This document shows, in pieces, positions 1,133-41,477 of a stretch of DNA of 64,000 bases. Position numbers and translations under genes: made by a program. Below the pieces are notes generated by a model. It did no database searches and was not told the DNA's origin. It saw only the letters and a list, made by a program, of their open reading frames with translations. The stretch is taken from NCBI GenBank assembly GCA_949282265.1, contig CASDOZ010000004.1, positions 102,672-166,671 of the forward strand, in the 5' to 3' direction. This DNA comes from an uncultured Bacteroidales bacterium. Its GTDB lineage: Bacteria; Bacteroidota; Bacteroidia; Bacteroidales; Paludibacteraceae. How positions within the stretch are numbered: position 1 is the first letter of the stretch; each line of letters starts with the position of its first letter.

Positions 1133-1166
1133 CAAAAAAAGCTGTACGAAAAAGAATCGTACAGCT
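1133..1166 (-). terminator. Intrinsic terminator of trpB
   Basis: A perfect 10-bp stem, AGCTGTACGA (1140-1149) with TCGTACAGCT (1157-1166), lies 20 bases after the trpB stop. On the minus strand it is followed by a run of seven T. Confidence 0.85.
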
Positions 1167-1185
1167 TCGTGTGATTGATTTTGTT

Positions 1186-2550
1186 TTAGACCAATGTTTC
1201 AATCTGATCCAGATTTTTTTGGATTTCCTCGTCTGTCATGGCATAATTAACCAAGTTGCCTGACAAATATTGGTCGTAAGCCGACATATCGACCAAGCCG
1301 TGTCCGCTCAGATTGAATAAAATGGTTTTTTTCGTGCCTTCTTCTTTGGTAATGTTTGCTTCACGGATTGCCGCTGCAATGGCATGGCAGCTTTCCGGCG
1401 CAGGAACGATACCTTCGCAACGTGCAAATAAGACACCAGCTTCAAACGAGTCTAACTGCTTGATATCAACGGCTTCCAGCCGGTTTTCTTTCAGCAACTG
1501 ACTGACAATGGTACCCGCACCGTGATAGCGCAATCCACCTGCATGGATGTTAGCCGGGGAAAAATTGTGTCCGAGTGTAAACATTGGTATCAGAGGCGTA
1601 TAACCGGATTCATCCCCAAAATCGTACTGGAATTTTCCGTGTGTCAATTTTGGGCATGAGGCCGGTTCGGCCGCGATGAAACGCGTTTTTTTACCATTCA
1701 GAATATTGTGCCGCATAAATGGGAACGAGATGCCGCCAAAGTTGGAGCCGCCACCGAAGCAACCGATAACAATGTCGGGATATTCGCCGGCCATTTCCAT
1801 TTGTTTTTCTGCTTCCAGTCCGATGATTGTCTGGTGCAGGGTTACATGGTTCAGCACGCTGCCGAGTGCATAACGGCAGTTCGGCGTCTGCATGGCCAGT
1901 TCCACCGCCTCCGAAATGGCAGTGCCGAGCGAGCCTTGGTAATTGGGGTGGTCGGTCAGGATTTTGCGGCCGGCTTTCGTGCTCATGCTGGGTGAAGCTA
2001 TGACTTGCGCGCCCCATGTCTGCATCAACGAGCGGCGATATGGTTTTTGCTCGTAGCTGATTTTCACCATATAAACCGCCAGTTCCAGGCCAAATGCCTT
2101 GCTGGCGAACGACAAGGCAGTTCCCCATTGTCCTGCCCCTGTTTCGGTTGTTACATTCGTTATGCCATCTTGTTTCAGATAATAAGCCTGTGCCAAAGCC
2201 GAATTGAGTTTATGTGAACCTACCGGGCTTACGCTCTCATTCTTGAAATAGATATGTGCCGGGGTGTCCAATGCTTTTTCTAATTCGTAGGCACGTACCA
2301 ATGGGGTCGAACGGTAGATTTTGTATTTGTCGCGTACCTGTTCGGGGATGTCAATCCAAGCATCGGTTTCGTTCAATTCCTGGTCGGATGCGCCTTTGGA
2401 AAACAACGGATACAAATCTTCGGGTTTCAGAGGCTGTTTTGTCCCCGGATTCAGCATTGGCATGGGTTTGGTCGGCATATCAGCCACAATATTATACCAT
2501 TGGGTCGGTATTTCCTTTTCGGGAAGCAGAAATTTTTTTGTCTTGTCCAT
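1186..2550 (-). CDS. trpB: Tryptophan synthase beta chain, TrpB2-type
   Basis: PLP enzyme that condenses indole with L-serine to give L-tryptophan. At 454 residues it is longer than classical TrpB1 (~400) and fits the TrpB2 subclass. SHKLNSAL around K114 holds the Schiff-base lysine, ETGAGQWG (136-143) is the catalytic glutamine-glycine loop, and CFGGGSNFGG (264-273) binds the cofactor phosphate. No trpA or other trp gene lies beside it, so it may use free indole or an alpha subunit encoded elsewhere. The start is ATG at 2550. The leader contains a complete Trp attenuator (2613-2826), so expression should rise when charged tRNA-Trp is scarce. That regulation supports a true tryptophan-forming role over a general PLP lyase. 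Confidence 0.92.
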   Translation of the reverse strand: MDKTKKFLLPEKEIPTQWYNIVADMPTKPMPMLNPGTKQPLKPEDLYPLFSKGASDQELNETDAWIDIPEQVRDKYKIYRSTPLVRAYELEKALDTPAHIYFKNESVSPVGSHKLNSALAQAYYLKQDGITNVTTETGAGQWGTALSFASKAFGLELAVYMVKISYEQKPYRRSLMQTWGAQVIASPSMSTKAGRKILTDHPNYQGSLGTAISEAVELAMQTPNCRYALGSVLNHVTLHQTIIGLEAEKQMEMAGEYPDIVIGCFGGGSNFGGISFPFMRHNILNGKKTRFIAAEPASCPKLTHGKFQYDFGDESGYTPLIPMFTLGHNFSPANIHAGGLRYHGAGTIVSQLLKENRLEAVDIKQLDSFEAGVLFARCEGIVPAPESCHAIAAAIREANITKEEGTKKTILFNLSGHGLVDMSAYDQYLSGNLVNYAMTDEEIQKNLDQIETLV

Positions 2551-2612
2551 AACTTTGTTTTTTAGATGTTACTTGATTTGCTTTTATGTTTGTTTTTATA
2601 TCCGGATAATAA

Positions 2613-2650
2613 TAAAAAAAGCTATTGTCCAACTGATAAACAATAGCTTT
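2613..2650 (-). terminator. trp attenuator: leader-region intrinsic terminator
   Basis: On the minus strand AAAGCTATTGT (2650-2640) pairs perfectly with ACAATAGCTTT (2628-2618), 11 bp, followed by a T-rich run (2620-2611). It sits between the leader peptide stop (2699) and the trpB start (2550), so it stops transcription before the structural gene. Confidence 0.88.
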
Positions 2651-2717
2651 GAATTTTATGTGTAGTCCTATTATGAAAAATACATACCTTGCAACGACTC
2701 AACTCCATTGTTTATCA
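2634..2717 (-). promoter_or_regulatory. trp antiterminator pairing
   Basis: TGATAAACAAT in the leader-peptide coding region (minus strand 2717-2707) is perfectly complementary to ATTGTTTATCA (2644-2634), which overlaps the 5' arm and loop of the terminator. The two pairings exclude each other. A ribosome stalled at the first Trp codons (2737-2729) leaves 2717-2707 free and favours antitermination. A ribosome that reaches the stop at 2699 covers it and lets the terminator form. Confidence 0.8.
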
Positions 2718-2764
2718 TCGAAGTTGCGCCACCACCAATTGTTATTGAATCGAATGAATTGCAT
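2699..2764 (-). CDS. trpL: trp operon leader peptide (21 residues, WWW motif)
   Basis: ATG at 2764-2762 starts MQFIRFNNNWWWRNFDDKQWS, ending at TGA 2701-2699. Residues 10-12 are three consecutive Trp (TGG TGG TGG at 2737-2729), and a fourth is residue 20; four Trp in 21 codons is far above chance. The frame lies between a strong promoter (2796-2826) and a terminator/antiterminator pair before trpB. Its role is as a sensor: ribosome progress over the Trp codons reports tryptophanyl-tRNA supply. The peptide itself probably has no function. This is the ribosome-mediated attenuation design known from enterobacterial trp, here with sequences of its own. Confidence 0.88.
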   Translation of the reverse strand: MQFIRFNNNWWWRNFDDKQWS

Positions 2765-2795
2765 GTATGTACTTGTTGTGTTCCTAAAACCGCGG

Positions 2796-2826
2796 CAAAT
2801 ATACGGATTATTTCTAAACCGACAAA
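2796..2826 (-). promoter_or_regulatory. trpL-trpB promoter
   Basis: Minus-strand TTTG (2826-2823), 19 bases, then TATATTTG (2803-2796): a full match to the Bacteroidota consensus. The predicted start (~2789) is about 25 bases before the leader ATG. The -33 box lies 27 bases beyond the folC stop. Confidence 0.75.
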
Positions 2827-5225: not shown

Positions 5226-7283
5226 TTATTGCCGTATAGAAGTTATTTTTACCTCGCCCTTGTCGGAAACGATGGTCAACTGCAATTTGTCTTGTGCATC
5301 ACGGGTGAACAGACAAATGTCTTGCGCGGAAGCCCTGAAAATCCTATCAAGCGTCAGCCCGGCAAATCCGATATTGCTTACCTTTCCGATGCTGCCGTCA
5401 TTGTTGATCCGCCCGCACACAATTCGCCCCTTATTGTAACCGACGACAAGTATCCCGTCTGCAACTTCGATAATGTTTTCTATGCGTTCGAATGATTTCA
5501 AAACGACGGTCCATACGTTCACCTCGTCAATCCGGCAGAGCTTGGTTCCGCCATCGGCTCCGTTATATGCGACATAAGTGATATTTGCCAATTCATCATA
5601 GTCCACAACTGCGGGAACGTTTTCGTTGCTGCTAATTTTGCGTATTTCCTTGCCGCCTTGGTTCATATAGACAATTGCAGATTGGCCGTTTTGTTTGGCT
5701 GCCAACACGCAGCCTGAACCATTGACCGACATGTTGTAAATCTGTTCCGTATTTCTCAGTTCGGCCAGCCAGATCGTAGCATTCTTTTCGTCTATTTTGG
5801 CCACAAACGCCACATTTCCTGCATTTTTTTTGGTTCCGGCCACATATTCAGGGTTGCCTTGCAAATTGTAATATATATGTGTGGTAATATATGGACCTTT
5901 GAGTGTTGGCAAATCATTTTCTTTCACGACCCACAATGGCACGGAAGAACCTTTGCCCCGGACGCTGTATGCAGGTTTGTCGCGTTGTCTTTCTACATTT
6001 CGTGTATAACTGGCAAAGTTGGCAAGCACCTCGCTGAATATCTTATCAAGAAATGCTGTTTCTGTGGATACATATTTTTCCAGGCCTTGCGTACCGCCGT
6101 AGTTTTTATTGAAAAATTCGGAAAAACGGGCTATGCGGTCAGGTGTCAGCGAATTTCCGACAGCCTCCAACGCCTTTTCCGTTTCACCAAGTTGTTCCGA
6201 GAACCTGTATATGTGGCGCATTTTGCGGTTCAATAGCACGGCTGATGTATCGAACGGCAATGCGAGGCTGTCATGTGCCATGAGCATAAGTTGCCGGCGG
6301 TCATCAAGGTAGCTGAAAAGTTCCCGCACAAGCGAATTGTTGTCATATTTGCCCAGTTGGAATATGAACAATTCATCGTAGGCTTCTTGGGCACCCGCGG
6401 CAAACGGACTGTTGTTTTCATATTCCTGTTTGCCTTGTTCATATTGCCGGTTTATGTCATCAATGCGTTGTCGAAGCGGCAAGATATCGGTCGCAAGCGT
6501 CTGGTTCACATCGTCTATCCATTTGCGGTAATCCCACATGCTGAAACGATCCATATAGAAATCGCTGTTGGTCAGGCCGTCAAGCCGGAACGTTTCTATG
6601 GGCTTGAATTCGTATGTTTGCCGGTAATCGCGTATCGGATATGCTTCAAGTGTTTTTTTGTATCGTGCAAATGCTTCGACACAATGGTCGATGTCGGAAC
6701 CAAGCGTGTCAAGGATGTTTTTGAGCGTGGCATTGTGCCGCAACAGCATGTCATTGAGGTTGCCGTAATTATCGCAAATCGATTTGAAAGTACCGATGCA
6801 TTTGTTGTAATAGCCTTTTGATTCTTCGAGTGCTTGATAAGCCATGGTTACCGAATCGCGGAAGTTTTTGCAGAACCGTTGGTGTTTTGCTACAAATGTT
6901 TTGATATCAGCATCTTGTATGCGTCCTCCGGACGCAGGGATGTCAAGATTCTGGTAAAATTCGCTGTTGGTCCTGGCATCGCCTTCGGAATAGAATACGC
7001 CAAAAGTATCGAAAAACAGTTTGGCGTTGTCTGCCCAATATTGGGCCGTCTGGATGTCGCGTAATGGGTCGGTTTCTATTAGTTTCTTTTCGCATATCAT
7101 GCCCAATTGCAAATAGGTATTGGCCCAATGCGGATTTGCCCGCTGGTATTCCATCAGTATGCTGTAAGCCTGGTCAAGTGTCTTGTCTGGCAAACTGTTG
7201 TATATTTCGGAGTATTTTTGTGCTTTTGCTGCGGCGAAAAAGGCAAATGCAAATGCGATGGCAAATATTTTATGTTTATTCAT
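5226..7283 (-). CDS. Exported protein with helical N-terminal and beta-propeller-like C-terminal half; function unknown
   Basis: 685 residues with a signal peptide (MNKHKIFAIAFAFAFFAAAKA, cleavage near AKA-Q at ~21). Residues ~25-120 look TPR-like (short helices, NTYLQLGMICEKK), ~130-400 are long charged helices, and ~470-685 are alternating short strands such as VPLWVVKEND, AIVYMNQGGKEI and LVVGYNKGRI, compatible with a beta-propeller. It begins 24 bases after the OmpA-family gene at 7308-9365, so the two are cotranscribed and probably act together in the periplasm or outer membrane. I do not recognise a named family. A partner of an envelope or T9SS-type complex is possible but inferred. 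Confidence 0.8.
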   Translation of the reverse strand: MNKHKIFAIAFAFAFFAAAKAQKYSEIYNSLPDKTLDQAYSILMEYQRANPHWANTYLQLGMICEKKLIETDPLRDIQTAQYWADNAKLFFDTFGVFYSEGDARTNSEFYQNLDIPASGGRIQDADIKTFVAKHQRFCKNFRDSVTMAYQALEESKGYYNKCIGTFKSICDNYGNLNDMLLRHNATLKNILDTLGSDIDHCVEAFARYKKTLEAYPIRDYRQTYEFKPIETFRLDGLTNSDFYMDRFSMWDYRKWIDDVNQTLATDILPLRQRIDDINRQYEQGKQEYENNSPFAAGAQEAYDELFIFQLGKYDNNSLVRELFSYLDDRRQLMLMAHDSLALPFDTSAVLLNRKMRHIYRFSEQLGETEKALEAVGNSLTPDRIARFSEFFNKNYGGTQGLEKYVSTETAFLDKIFSEVLANFASYTRNVERQRDKPAYSVRGKGSSVPLWVVKENDLPTLKGPYITTHIYYNLQGNPEYVAGTKKNAGNVAFVAKIDEKNATIWLAELRNTEQIYNMSVNGSGCVLAAKQNGQSAIVYMNQGGKEIRKISSNENVPAVVDYDELANITYVAYNGADGGTKLCRIDEVNVWTVVLKSFERIENIIEVADGILVVGYNKGRIVCGRINNDGSIGKVSNIGFAGLTLDRIFRASAQDICLFTRDAQDKLQLTIVSDKGEVKITSIRQ

Positions 7284-7307: not shown

Positions 7308-9365
7308 TTATTGTTGTATGTTTTTCGTTGCCAATACCACAAATTCCACACGTCGGTTTATGGCACGGTTTTCTTCGCTGTCGTTGGGAACCAAAGGCTT
7401 GCTCATTCCGTATCCTTTTGATTGCAAACGGCTTTGCGGTATGCCGCTTTCCACAATATAGTTGACAACCGACTGTGCGCGGCGTTCAGAGAGTATGATG
7501 TTATAGTCGGCATTGCCCACGTTGTCGGTGTGGGCCGAAATTTCGATTATCAAATCCGGATTGTCGTGCATAAGTTGGACAACACGGTCAAGTTCGAAAT
7601 ACGAATCCGGCATTATTTCAGCCGAACCGGTAGCGAAATTGATGTTGTAAAGTTGCAGTGAAGCATTTATTTTCAGCGGAACAAGTTCTACCGCGATTTC
7701 ATCGGTGTTTTGTTTTTTCAGGTCGATAATGCCATTGTGGAATGCGTAACCATCCACGCCATCCACTGTCATGTCGTATTGGTCATTGTCCCGCAATTTG
7801 ACGACAGCTTGCCCGTTAATCATTTGGGATGGTTCAATAATACATTCTTCTTCACGGTTACGGTTGTCAAAAAACACATGGGCGGCAAGTGGCTTTTTTG
7901 TTTCTACATCGCAAACATTCACTTTTATATCGCGTTTGAACGGTTCCAAGGGGAGATTACGTTCAAAATAGGAGAACACAATATCACCTTCGAGTTTGAA
8001 TAAGAATTTATTTTCGGCAAAGCCTTTGGCCGTAGCTGCGATGTCGTAGTTGCTGCCCAAAGGCAAAGCCAGTAGATATTTGCCATCGGCATGGGCTTGG
8101 GCGTGGAAAACGCTTTTGTCGGATGTGCGCACGGCAATAACCTCGCCATCAAGCGGGCGGAATATCTCGCTGTCATAAACGCTTACGGACAGTTGCACTG
8201 TGTCGAAAAGCTCGATGACATCGGGCATTTCCGGTTTGGAAGAGTTACGGTAATCGAGCATATAGCTGGCAAATGAATAATCGGGATTACGCACATCCAC
8301 AATGTATTGCGAGCCGGATGTATTTGTCAGGTCGTAACCGCCTTCCCATTGGTCGCTCTGATAGCGGCCAAGGACTTTGAGTGTTGTCGGGTTATAGACT
8401 GTTACATCGGCCGCGATGGGTTTATGCGAGGCAAGGGTCTGGATATTGCCTTTTTCCGTGACCACGGTGCGTGGCATGGATTCTTTGCCGGTCATTCTCA
8501 TGCGGGCAATACGGCCTTGGCGCAATTGTTTTTTGTTGTTGGCATGGACAAAATAAAGCCATTTTCCGGCATAGCGGGGTGAATAAAAGTCATAACCCGA
8601 TTCGTTTTGTGTAAGTGACGAAGGCAAAAGCCATGAATTGCTCCACAGCAAGCGCGCGAACATCATTTGCGTGGTTTCTTTGCGTTCGGATCGTATCGTA
8701 TAATAGACTGTCCGCGCGTCGGAGGCTACCGTGACATCCTGCATGTAACCAGAGTTGATCACATTGTCAACCGGTTGTGGTTCCTTCCATGTCCCATGCG
8801 GGTCACGGTCGGAGGTGTATATGCTCATTTTGTCAGCATCTTTTTTTTCTATTTTGGGGTCATTATTTTTCTGGTGTTTGAGGAAATAAATGGTTTCATC
8901 ACCGGGAATCAATGCCGGATAAGTTTCGTTTTCGGCTGTATTGATGCCATCCAGAAGTTGCGGCTCGCTCCAACCTTCGGGTTGCTTGTCGCTGTAATAG
9001 ATGTCGAATCCGCCGGCACCACCGGGATAATTGGCATGAAAATAAAGCCTCCGTTCGTTATCGGACATAAATGCGCCGCCGACCGATGCCGTATCGCCAG
9101 CATGGCGATTGATGATTCCGATAGGTTCGGCTTCGCTCCATTGGCTGCCGGAGAAAAAAGATTCGTATAACATGGTACGGCCCGCAGCATTGACGAGTGT
9201 CATGACAAGGTGGTTTTCGGAGCGGTTTATGGAAAAATCGACTACATTTTCCCACGTGCCGACTTTGTCAAATGTACCTGAAATATCGGCCGCATAGGTT
9301 TCAAAACACAATAGAATGGAAAACATGCTTGCCATCAAGCGGACTTTCCTGCATAAAAAATTCAT
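7308..9365 (-). CDS. OmpA-family peptidoglycan-associated protein with WD40-like propeller and carboxypeptidase-regulatory-like domain
   Basis: 685 residues. Signal peptide ~1-26. Residues ~30-300 contain WD40-like (PD40) strands, e.g. DNERRLYFHANYPGG and FDIYYSDKQPEGWSEPQL. A beta-sandwich of the carboxypeptidase-regulatory type lies around 395-460 (SVSVYDSEIFRPLDGEV). From ~570 there is a C-terminal OmpA/MotB domain: NFATGSAEI, EISAHTDNVG, NIILSERRAQSVVNY, SKGYGMSKP and NRRVEFVV, which binds peptidoglycan. The propeller-CRD-OmpA order resembles PorE of the type IX secretion system, but the N-terminal TPRs of PorE are absent; TPR-like helices occur instead in the next gene. First gene of a two-gene operon. 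Confidence 0.87.
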   Translation of the reverse strand: MNFLCRKVRLMASMFSILLCFETYAADISGTFDKVGTWENVVDFSINRSENHLVMTLVNAAGRTMLYESFFSGSQWSEAEPIGIINRHAGDTASVGGAFMSDNERRLYFHANYPGGAGGFDIYYSDKQPEGWSEPQLLDGINTAENETYPALIPGDETIYFLKHQKNNDPKIEKKDADKMSIYTSDRDPHGTWKEPQPVDNVINSGYMQDVTVASDARTVYYTIRSERKETTQMMFARLLWSNSWLLPSSLTQNESGYDFYSPRYAGKWLYFVHANNKKQLRQGRIARMRMTGKESMPRTVVTEKGNIQTLASHKPIAADVTVYNPTTLKVLGRYQSDQWEGGYDLTNTSGSQYIVDVRNPDYSFASYMLDYRNSSKPEMPDVIELFDTVQLSVSVYDSEIFRPLDGEVIAVRTSDKSVFHAQAHADGKYLLALPLGSNYDIAATAKGFAENKFLFKLEGDIVFSYFERNLPLEPFKRDIKVNVCDVETKKPLAAHVFFDNRNREEECIIEPSQMINGQAVVKLRDNDQYDMTVDGVDGYAFHNGIIDLKKQNTDEIAVELVPLKINASLQLYNINFATGSAEIMPDSYFELDRVVQLMHDNPDLIIEISAHTDNVGNADYNIILSERRAQSVVNYIVESGIPQSRLQSKGYGMSKPLVPNDSEENRAINRRVEFVVLATKNIQQ

Positions 9366-41390: not shown

Positions 41391-41477
41391 CGGAAAGTGA
41401 GGGATTCGAACCCCCGGTACAGTTACCCGTACACCGCATTTCGAGTGCGGCCCGATCGACCACTCCGGCAACTTTCC
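41391..41477 (-). tRNA. tRNA-Ser(CGA)
   Basis: 87 nt. Acceptor stem GGAAAGT/ACTTTCC with discriminator G; anticodon arm CCGCA-CTCGAAA-TGCGG gives anticodon CGA (reads UCG); long class II variable arm GTACGGGTAACTGTAC; T-arm GGGGG-TTCGAAT-CCCTC. CCA is not encoded. Confidence 0.96.

Follow-up and report, generated by a model that had tools for sequence, protein, structure and literature searches.

The window analysed here is a 64,000-nt stretch of DNA from an uncultured Bacteroidales bacterium (GCA_949282265.1, contig CASDOZ010000004.1, positions 102,672–166,671), and all coordinates below refer to it. On its minus strand a folC-like gene (4127–2853) is followed by a promoter, a short leader open reading frame (ORF) rich in tryptophan (Trp) codons, a terminator, and trpB2 (2550–1186), in this order. 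The features of the locus, with the basis of each assignment, are as follows:

2796–2826, minus strand: Bacteroidetes-type promoter, TTTG at 2826–2823, 19 nt, and TATATTTG at 2803–2796 (read directly, rechecked by script)
2759–2774, minus strand: long-range leader stem, 5' side (predicted folds; preference for own partner in relatives)
2699–2764, minus strand: leader peptide ORF MQFIRFNNNWWWRNFDDKQWS, 21 codons, ATG at 2764 and TGA at 2701–2699
2729–2737, minus strand: tandem Trp codons 10–12, the presumed sensing site (read directly; Trp pairs or runs in relatives)
2705–2717, minus strand: antiterminator 5' arm TGATAAACAATGG, including Trp codon 20 (pairing, covariation, folding)
2678–2694, minus strand: long-range leader stem, 3' side (predicted folds; preference for own partner in relatives)
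2634–2646, minus strand: antiterminator 3' arm CTATTGTTTATCA, overlapping the terminator 5' arm (pairing, covariation, folding)
2608–2650, minus strand: intrinsic terminator, hairpin and T-rich tail (folding, terminator scan, covariation)
1186–2550, minus strand: trpB2, 454 aa, TrpB-like PLP enzyme (profile scores, solved relatives)
1138–1168, minus strand: terminator downstream of trpB2 (terminator scan)

A preliminary description of this locus had read from it a promoter at 2796–2826, a 21-codon leader with Trp at positions 10–12 and 20, a terminator at 2613–2650 and an 11-nt pairing of 2707–2717 with 2634–2644, and each of these parts was recovered on rereading and by script. The promoter proved to be of the Bacteroidetes type, the fourth Trp codon (codon 20) occupies 2707–2705, and the terminator consists of a 14-pair hairpin (2650–2618, -14.8 kcal/mol) with the tail TTTTATTATT. 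The segment TGATAAACAAT (2717–2707) is exactly complementary to ATTGTTTATCA (2644–2634) over 11 bp, and the helix reaches 13 bp (2717–2705 with 2646–2634, one G-U), its duplex energy being -13.5 kcal/mol as against -9.9 kcal/mol for the 11-mer. The terminator at 1168–1138, directly after trpB2, suggests a single-gene unit. A search of the organism's own genome for exact copies of TGGTGGTGGCGC gave a single site, at the window leader. Elsewhere on the minus strand of the window, two adjacent ORFs (5226–7283 and 7308–9365) have exactly 685 codons each, the latter with a C-terminus that is OmpA-like by eye, and a tRNA at 41391–41477 is the window's only Rfam match over the gathering threshold.

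The window leader folds with unusual stability (z = -4.52, with 1 of 200 shuffles as stable), and its RNA was folded in the states imposed by successive ribosome positions. The edge of a ribosome lies about 16 nt past its P-site, a generally known footprint that was used throughout these calculations. With the A-site at any of codons 10–12 and a nascent transcript reaching 2634, the mean pair probability of the antiterminator was 0.93–0.97, while a ribosome at the stop codon, or naked RNA, gave for the full leader a terminator probability of ~0.97 and no antiterminator. At equilibrium in the full leader, the antiterminator probability was 0.14, 0.37 and 0.90 for ribosomes at codons 10, 11 and 12, respectively, when downstream RNA alone could pair, and ~0 despite the stalled ribosome when upstream RNA could pair as well. 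This recovery of the terminator at equilibrium means that the switch must depend on kinetics, as attenuators usually do. If folding is co-transcriptional, and given the footprint above, the arm is exposed at the Trp codons and covered at the stop. The geometry originally proposed, in which a ribosome halted at the first two Trp codons frees the arm and one at the stop covers it, therefore stands with two refinements: a ribosome at any of the three tandem codons leaves 2717–2705 free, and Trp codon 20 is excluded as a sensor, since it lies inside the arm and a ribosome waiting there would not antiterminate. The codon-20 position in relatives reads TGG or TGA, so that the feature conserved there may be the pairing and not the amino acid. 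In the naked leader a predicted long-range stem (2774–2765 with 2687–2678, and 2763–2759 with 2694–2690) encloses an inner hairpin holding the antiterminator arm, and would act as a 1:2 structure.

Conservation was assessed by a fixed rule that called an attenuator where an ATG- or GTG-initiated ORF of 8–40 aa containing W.?W was followed, -10 to 90 nt from the leader stop, by a hairpin of -8 kcal/mol or lower with a T-rich tail. It was applied to trpB2 upstream regions of the best 80 of 578 relatives in a genome collection and of 62 genomes of the organism's own family, the latter being the 65 with a TrpB2-type match minus three (G002, G035, G080) excluded because no more than ~350 nt separate the gene start from a contig end. 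Positive calls were obtained for 24 of the 62 family loci and 10 of the 80 best collection loci. None of 310 dinucleotide-preserving shuffles of the family upstream regions was called, eight of them having a leader-like ORF, and a single call was made among 268 other ORFs (~200 codons or more, from the window and the 80 loci, TrpB-like genes excluded). Five family loci whose leader and hairpin can be read (L084, L085, L086, L087, L126) escape the rule, and further leaders were found by eye in the collection (L004, L008, L046, L058, L074); two pairs of loci, L070 with L109 and L009 with L091, apparently represent the same genome in both collections. Attenuation as a mark of all Bacteroidales trpB2 genes was rejected on the collection count: the rule left 38 of the 62 family and 70 of the 80 collection upstream regions uncalled, and none of the ten called collection loci is titled Bacteroides or Parabacteroides.

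In a congener (G018, TrpB2 96% identical) all parts are kept with one change in the leader peptide, and in wider relatives the leader peptides vary fast apart from Trp. The Trp run and the complementarity that the preliminary description had singled out are preserved among these relatives, with covarying helices, even though the element is missing before many of the order's trpB2 genes. Three other loci (L024, L032, L098) have terminator-like hairpins within ~70 nt before trpB2 and no Trp leader found by the scans; these are perhaps attenuator remnants or another form of control. In one genus a tRNA-Ser (GCT) lies directly before trpB2 (L092:1307-1394, L096:1306-1393, L099:1227-1316), none of these loci having a called attenuator, and this adjacency may reflect a theme of serine as likely co-substrate or may be coincidence.

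The elements adopt two geometries, labelled in this analysis class A (the window and 15 others) and class B (26 loci analysed, from 27 listed; L074 was left out of the duplex test because no terminator met its rule). In class A an antiterminator arm near the leader end, typically AAACAATG, pairs with the terminator 5' arm, typically TGTTGTTT, and in three of the 16 leaders (L004, L085, L086) there is a single Trp codon. In many class-B loci the terminator loop or its 3' side pairs with a segment close to or beyond the leader stop, often GGAGG or AGGTGG. Leaders pair better with their own terminators than with swapped ones in both class A (-18.06 vs -14.63 kcal/mol) and class B (-15.87 vs -12.89 kcal/mol), and none of 20000 permutations was as good in either class, in a test that ignores kinship. 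Only four of the 16 leaders in class A, and one of the 26 in class B, had their cognate terminator in first rank. The long-range stem likewise prefers its own partner, with one permutation in 20000 as good in each class; kinship is again ignored in this test, as it is in the covariation shuffles below.

In the 16-sequence class-A alignment the mutually exclusive antiterminator and terminator helices covary. The antiterminator is paired in 87.3% of cells and the terminator in 97.7%, and changes on both sides of a pair are seen in 6 of 13 and 6 of 11 pairs, respectively; for both helices, 0 of 500 shuffles reached the covariation score or the paired fraction. The number of double-changed pairs was matched by 10 of 500 shuffles in each case, and the number of pair types by 70 (antiterminator) and 157 (terminator) of 500. 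Two outer antiterminator pairs (columns 76 and 89) are broken in roughly half of the sequences that have a letter at these positions. Where the terminator 5' arm, which the two helices share, has changed, each helix shows a matching change, as with GGAC and GTCC in L094, CGAAC and GTTCG in L022, and ACGA and TCGT in L090 and L100.

The motif TAnnTTTG, given as the Bacteroidetes promoter in the excerpted text of PMC6414381, was found in 29 of the 42 loci of classes A and B, including the window, at a distance of at most 90 nt from the leader start, compared with 6.7% of shuffles; it is present in all 16 class-A loci, and both promoter boxes occur in 20 of the 42 (shuffles, 0.6%). A sigma-70-type match overlapping the window promoter was not above chance, the scan giving 3 sites as against 4.0 in shuffles, and the Bacteroidetes-type box is thus the better supported of the two at this position.

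The protein encoded downstream exceeds the cut-offs of profiles TIGR01415 (594.5 bits, cut-off 518.85) and NF009057 (702.1 bits, cut-off 366), and falls under that of the TrpB1 model TIGR00263 (144.1 bits, cut-off 392.45), which identifies it as TrpB2 and not TrpB1. Its best solved relatives are 6hul, 4qys and 6hte. According to the excerpted text of PMC11085991 and PMC11917138, which cite others on this point, TrpB2 forms Trp from indole and uses O-phosphoserine. The organism's own genome (G000; 2.47 Mb, 89% complete) was searched for trpC, trpA, TrpB and tryptophanase. The window TrpB2 is its sole TrpB; there was no match to indole-3-glycerol phosphate synthase (IGPS, trpC) or tryptophanase, no TrpA over cut-off, and no second TrpB, and the 99% complete genome of the congener was likewise without a match to IGPS, TrpA, second TrpB or tryptophanase. 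G000 does give one TrpA match, of 18.9 bits against a cut-off of 27 and confined to profile positions 180–233; it was not counted as TrpA, because the partial match recurs elsewhere, also in some genomes with a full TrpA. Of 101 genomes, 53 match the tryptophanase profile TIGR02617 at E 0.001 and none reaches its cut-off; only the total lack of a match in the own genome and the congener was used.

Across the family, the attenuator tends to accompany absence of the pathway. It was called in 17 of 25 genomes without IGPS and TrpA, some of which are incomplete, compared with 7 of 37 with either (p = 0.00016, by a Fisher test that ignores kinship). The association persisted among genomes with a completeness of 90% or more and contamination of 5% or less (10 of 16 vs 7 of 33, p = 0.0091), after genera were collapsed to distinct combinations (11 of 18 vs 3 of 14, p = 0.036), and after the five overlooked loci were added (19 of 25 vs 10 of 37, p = 0.00023; p = 0.015 with the quality filter). 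In g6, g24 and g29 the attenuator is found only where the pathway is missing, and in g8 and g33 it occurs in both settings; g27 combines attenuator and pathway, and g7, g10, g21 and g32 have neither. These distributions support, without proving, a role for TrpB2 as the sole Trp-making enzyme of the pathway-less attenuator genomes. With the indole-making genes trpC and trpA not found, TrpB2 most likely supplies Trp from external indole, and the earlier suggestion of a Trp-supply enzyme, perhaps working from indole, fits this gene content as predicted from sequence.

From the observed anatomy, conservation and covariation of the leader, together with the absence of the searched genes, we infer how the locus would respond to Trp, which reaction TrpB2 would carry out and where its indole would come from. 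When charged tRNA-Trp is scarce, a ribosome would wait at Trp codons 10–12, leaving the arm 2717–2705 ahead of it free to pair with 2646–2634 once that segment is transcribed; the antiterminator would block the terminator, and RNA polymerase would continue into trpB2. When Trp is plentiful, the ribosome would reach the stop and cover the arm, allowing the terminator (2650–2618) to form and transcription to end. If the leader is not translated, its own fold would hide the arm and the terminator would again form. The enzyme so controlled would join external indole to a serine donor, yielding tryptophan. Taken together, the locus very probably represents a ribosome-mediated Trp attenuator controlling a lone trpB2, whose product is most likely to supply Trp from outside indole.

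Several other explanations deserve consideration. It can scarcely be credited that the arrangement is a product of chance, with the hairpin serving as terminator of the folC-like gene and the Trp run accidental. That gene does end just upstream on the same strand, at 2853, but a promoter lies between it and the leader, the rule calls none of the 310 shuffles and a single one of the 268 control ORFs, and the parts are conserved with covariation. Hardly more persuasive is a T-box, riboswitch or protein-bound leader in which the Trp-rich ORF is incidental. Trp genes in other phyla are known to be under other types of control, yet an Rfam scan of the window leader returned no family over threshold, and the Trp-rich ORF recurs at the right place, its position fitting control by a ribosome in the folding analysis. 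Sub-threshold Rfam matches (CRISPR repeat, L10 leader, STnc150, Six3os1_3; E 3.3–9.8) were taken as chance.

The terminated leader RNA, or its peptide, could also act in trans, beside or instead of control in cis. Such a role for a trp leader peptide is described for rnTrpL/peTrpL of Sinorhizobium in the excerpted text of PMC7298713, and a terminated leader of ~170 nt would arise at the window locus. However, the peptides diverge fast apart from Trp, unlike a peptide with a fixed partner, and the conserved feature is the cis pairing, making this explanation quite improbable. A different proposal accepts the attenuator as real and has TrpB2 serve another reaction (e.g., serine turnover or another beta-replacement) while being merely wired to Trp supply. 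Another function, with none identified, was argued for the lone trpB2 of P. horikoshii (PMC1854888, in excerpt), trpB2 occurs without attenuator and without pathway in 8 of 25 family genomes, and TrpB2 activity here is a prediction. We nevertheless consider this proposal unlikely, since Trp codons would be an odd means of controlling an enzyme without effect on Trp, the protein matches TrpB2 profiles and solved TrpB2 chains, and Trp formation from indole is what the sources above describe for TrpB2. The preferred reading thus remains an attenuator acting in cis on a Trp-forming TrpB2.

The role of lone TrpB2 genes has so far been uncertain; P. horikoshii, with a lone trpB2 and no other trp genes, is noted as a puzzle in the excerpted text of PMC1854888. 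A Trp-codon attenuator before such a gene, in a genome that yielded neither trpC nor trpB1 and no TrpA over cut-off, is independent evidence that the cell treats TrpB2 as a source of tryptophan. A tentative generalization, to which we give somewhat less than even weight, is that Bacteroidales without Trp biosynthesis have kept attenuation on, or moved it to, a stand-alone TrpB2, enabling them to sense Trp shortage and capture the indole of their neighbours. If true, this would define a regulated indole-for-tryptophan cross-feeding trait recognisable from sequence, an attenuated lone trpB2 flagging bacteria possibly dependent on community indole.

For the trp operon of Bacteroidetes, Trp attenuation has been described before. 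The Bacteroid-trp family RF01692 appears as a table entry in PMC2864571 (Weinberg 2010) and, in the excerpted text of PMC6414381, precedes the trp operon of Flavobacterium psychrophilum. Excerpts of a Flavobacterium transcriptome paper offer clues for leader-peptide attenuation before amino-acid operons, and those of a B. thetaiotaomicron transcriptome paper describe leader-peptide-like short ORFs in a main text without trp. Within the organism's family, 20 trpB1 upstream regions were fetched, one of which (L146) ran off its contig; 16 of the remaining 19 have a Trp-rich leader, and five of these 16 exceed the RF01692 gathering threshold (49 bits). In most of the trpB1 leaders L145, L147–L154 and L156 a third pairing is visible by eye, of TCGTGAG near the leader stop with CTCACGA on the terminator 3' side. 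No RF01692 match over gathering was obtained in the window or in the 20 trpB2 loci scanned (of the 42 in classes A and B), and these Rfam scans assigned the trpB2 leaders to no other known leader family.

A covariance model built from class A alone, with only the terminator paired, finds one site in the organism's own genome and, at E <= 0.01, has matches in 65 of 295 genomes from the order. Among the 30 loci listed for it, six lie before TrpB2 (including the window and its congener, both of which are in the model), 12 directly before a TrpB1-like gene and one at a distance from such a gene, nine before TrpE (Pfam), one before a TrpD-like gene, and one near a contig end; the TrpB1-like genes are 26.6–30.2% identical to the window TrpB2. 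The element thus belongs to a broad group of Trp leaders in the order that change quickly. One locus (L177, G296) has two tandem Trp leaders before trpE, MNLQNNNWWWHYNNSKIS and MTKMNLNISWWWHRNFSILS, at 1387 and 1521 in minus-strand orientation, a possible double attenuator.

The mechanism proposed for the window trpB2 is therefore well supported by comparison, as far as sequence can carry it, and of a kind already known. The preliminary description had left its novelty open. As a form of control it is not new to the phylum, given RF01692; the new part is the trpB2 target, RF01692 being known for the trp operon and the trpB2 leaders scanned being unmatched by it. The open-access matches listed, as excerpted, include no description of a trpB2 attenuator in Bacteroidetes, and a survey by Lopatovskaya et al. 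(2010) may bear on this point. RF01692 shares with the window element a Trp leader ORF and a folded leader in Bacteroidetes, but precedes a trp operon and has another antiterminator geometry, whereas the window element precedes a single-gene trpB2. In Corynebacterium diphtheriae an attenuator is predicted before trpB2A (PMC1262725, in excerpt), similarly a Trp attenuator before a gene called trpB2; there, however, the organism belongs to the Actinobacteria, the gene is part of a second trp operon that includes trpA, and its name need not mean membership of the TrpB2 family.

Attenuation itself is a textbook mechanism. In the trp operon of E. coli, a leader peptide with tandem Trp codons is coupled to an antiterminator competing with an intrinsic terminator. 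The window element shares both properties, but controls a lone trpB2 and places the antiterminator arm inside the leader ORF; no sequence relation is claimed. What makes the case worthwhile is its target: Trp codons here control a stand-alone TrpB2, as predicted, in a genome that yielded none of the indole-making genes searched for. The stand-alone TrpB2 proteins of archaea and bacteria considered in the excerpted text of PMC1854888 belong to the same protein family and are likewise encoded outside an operon, and the window trpB2 differs in being placed under predicted Trp-codon attenuation.
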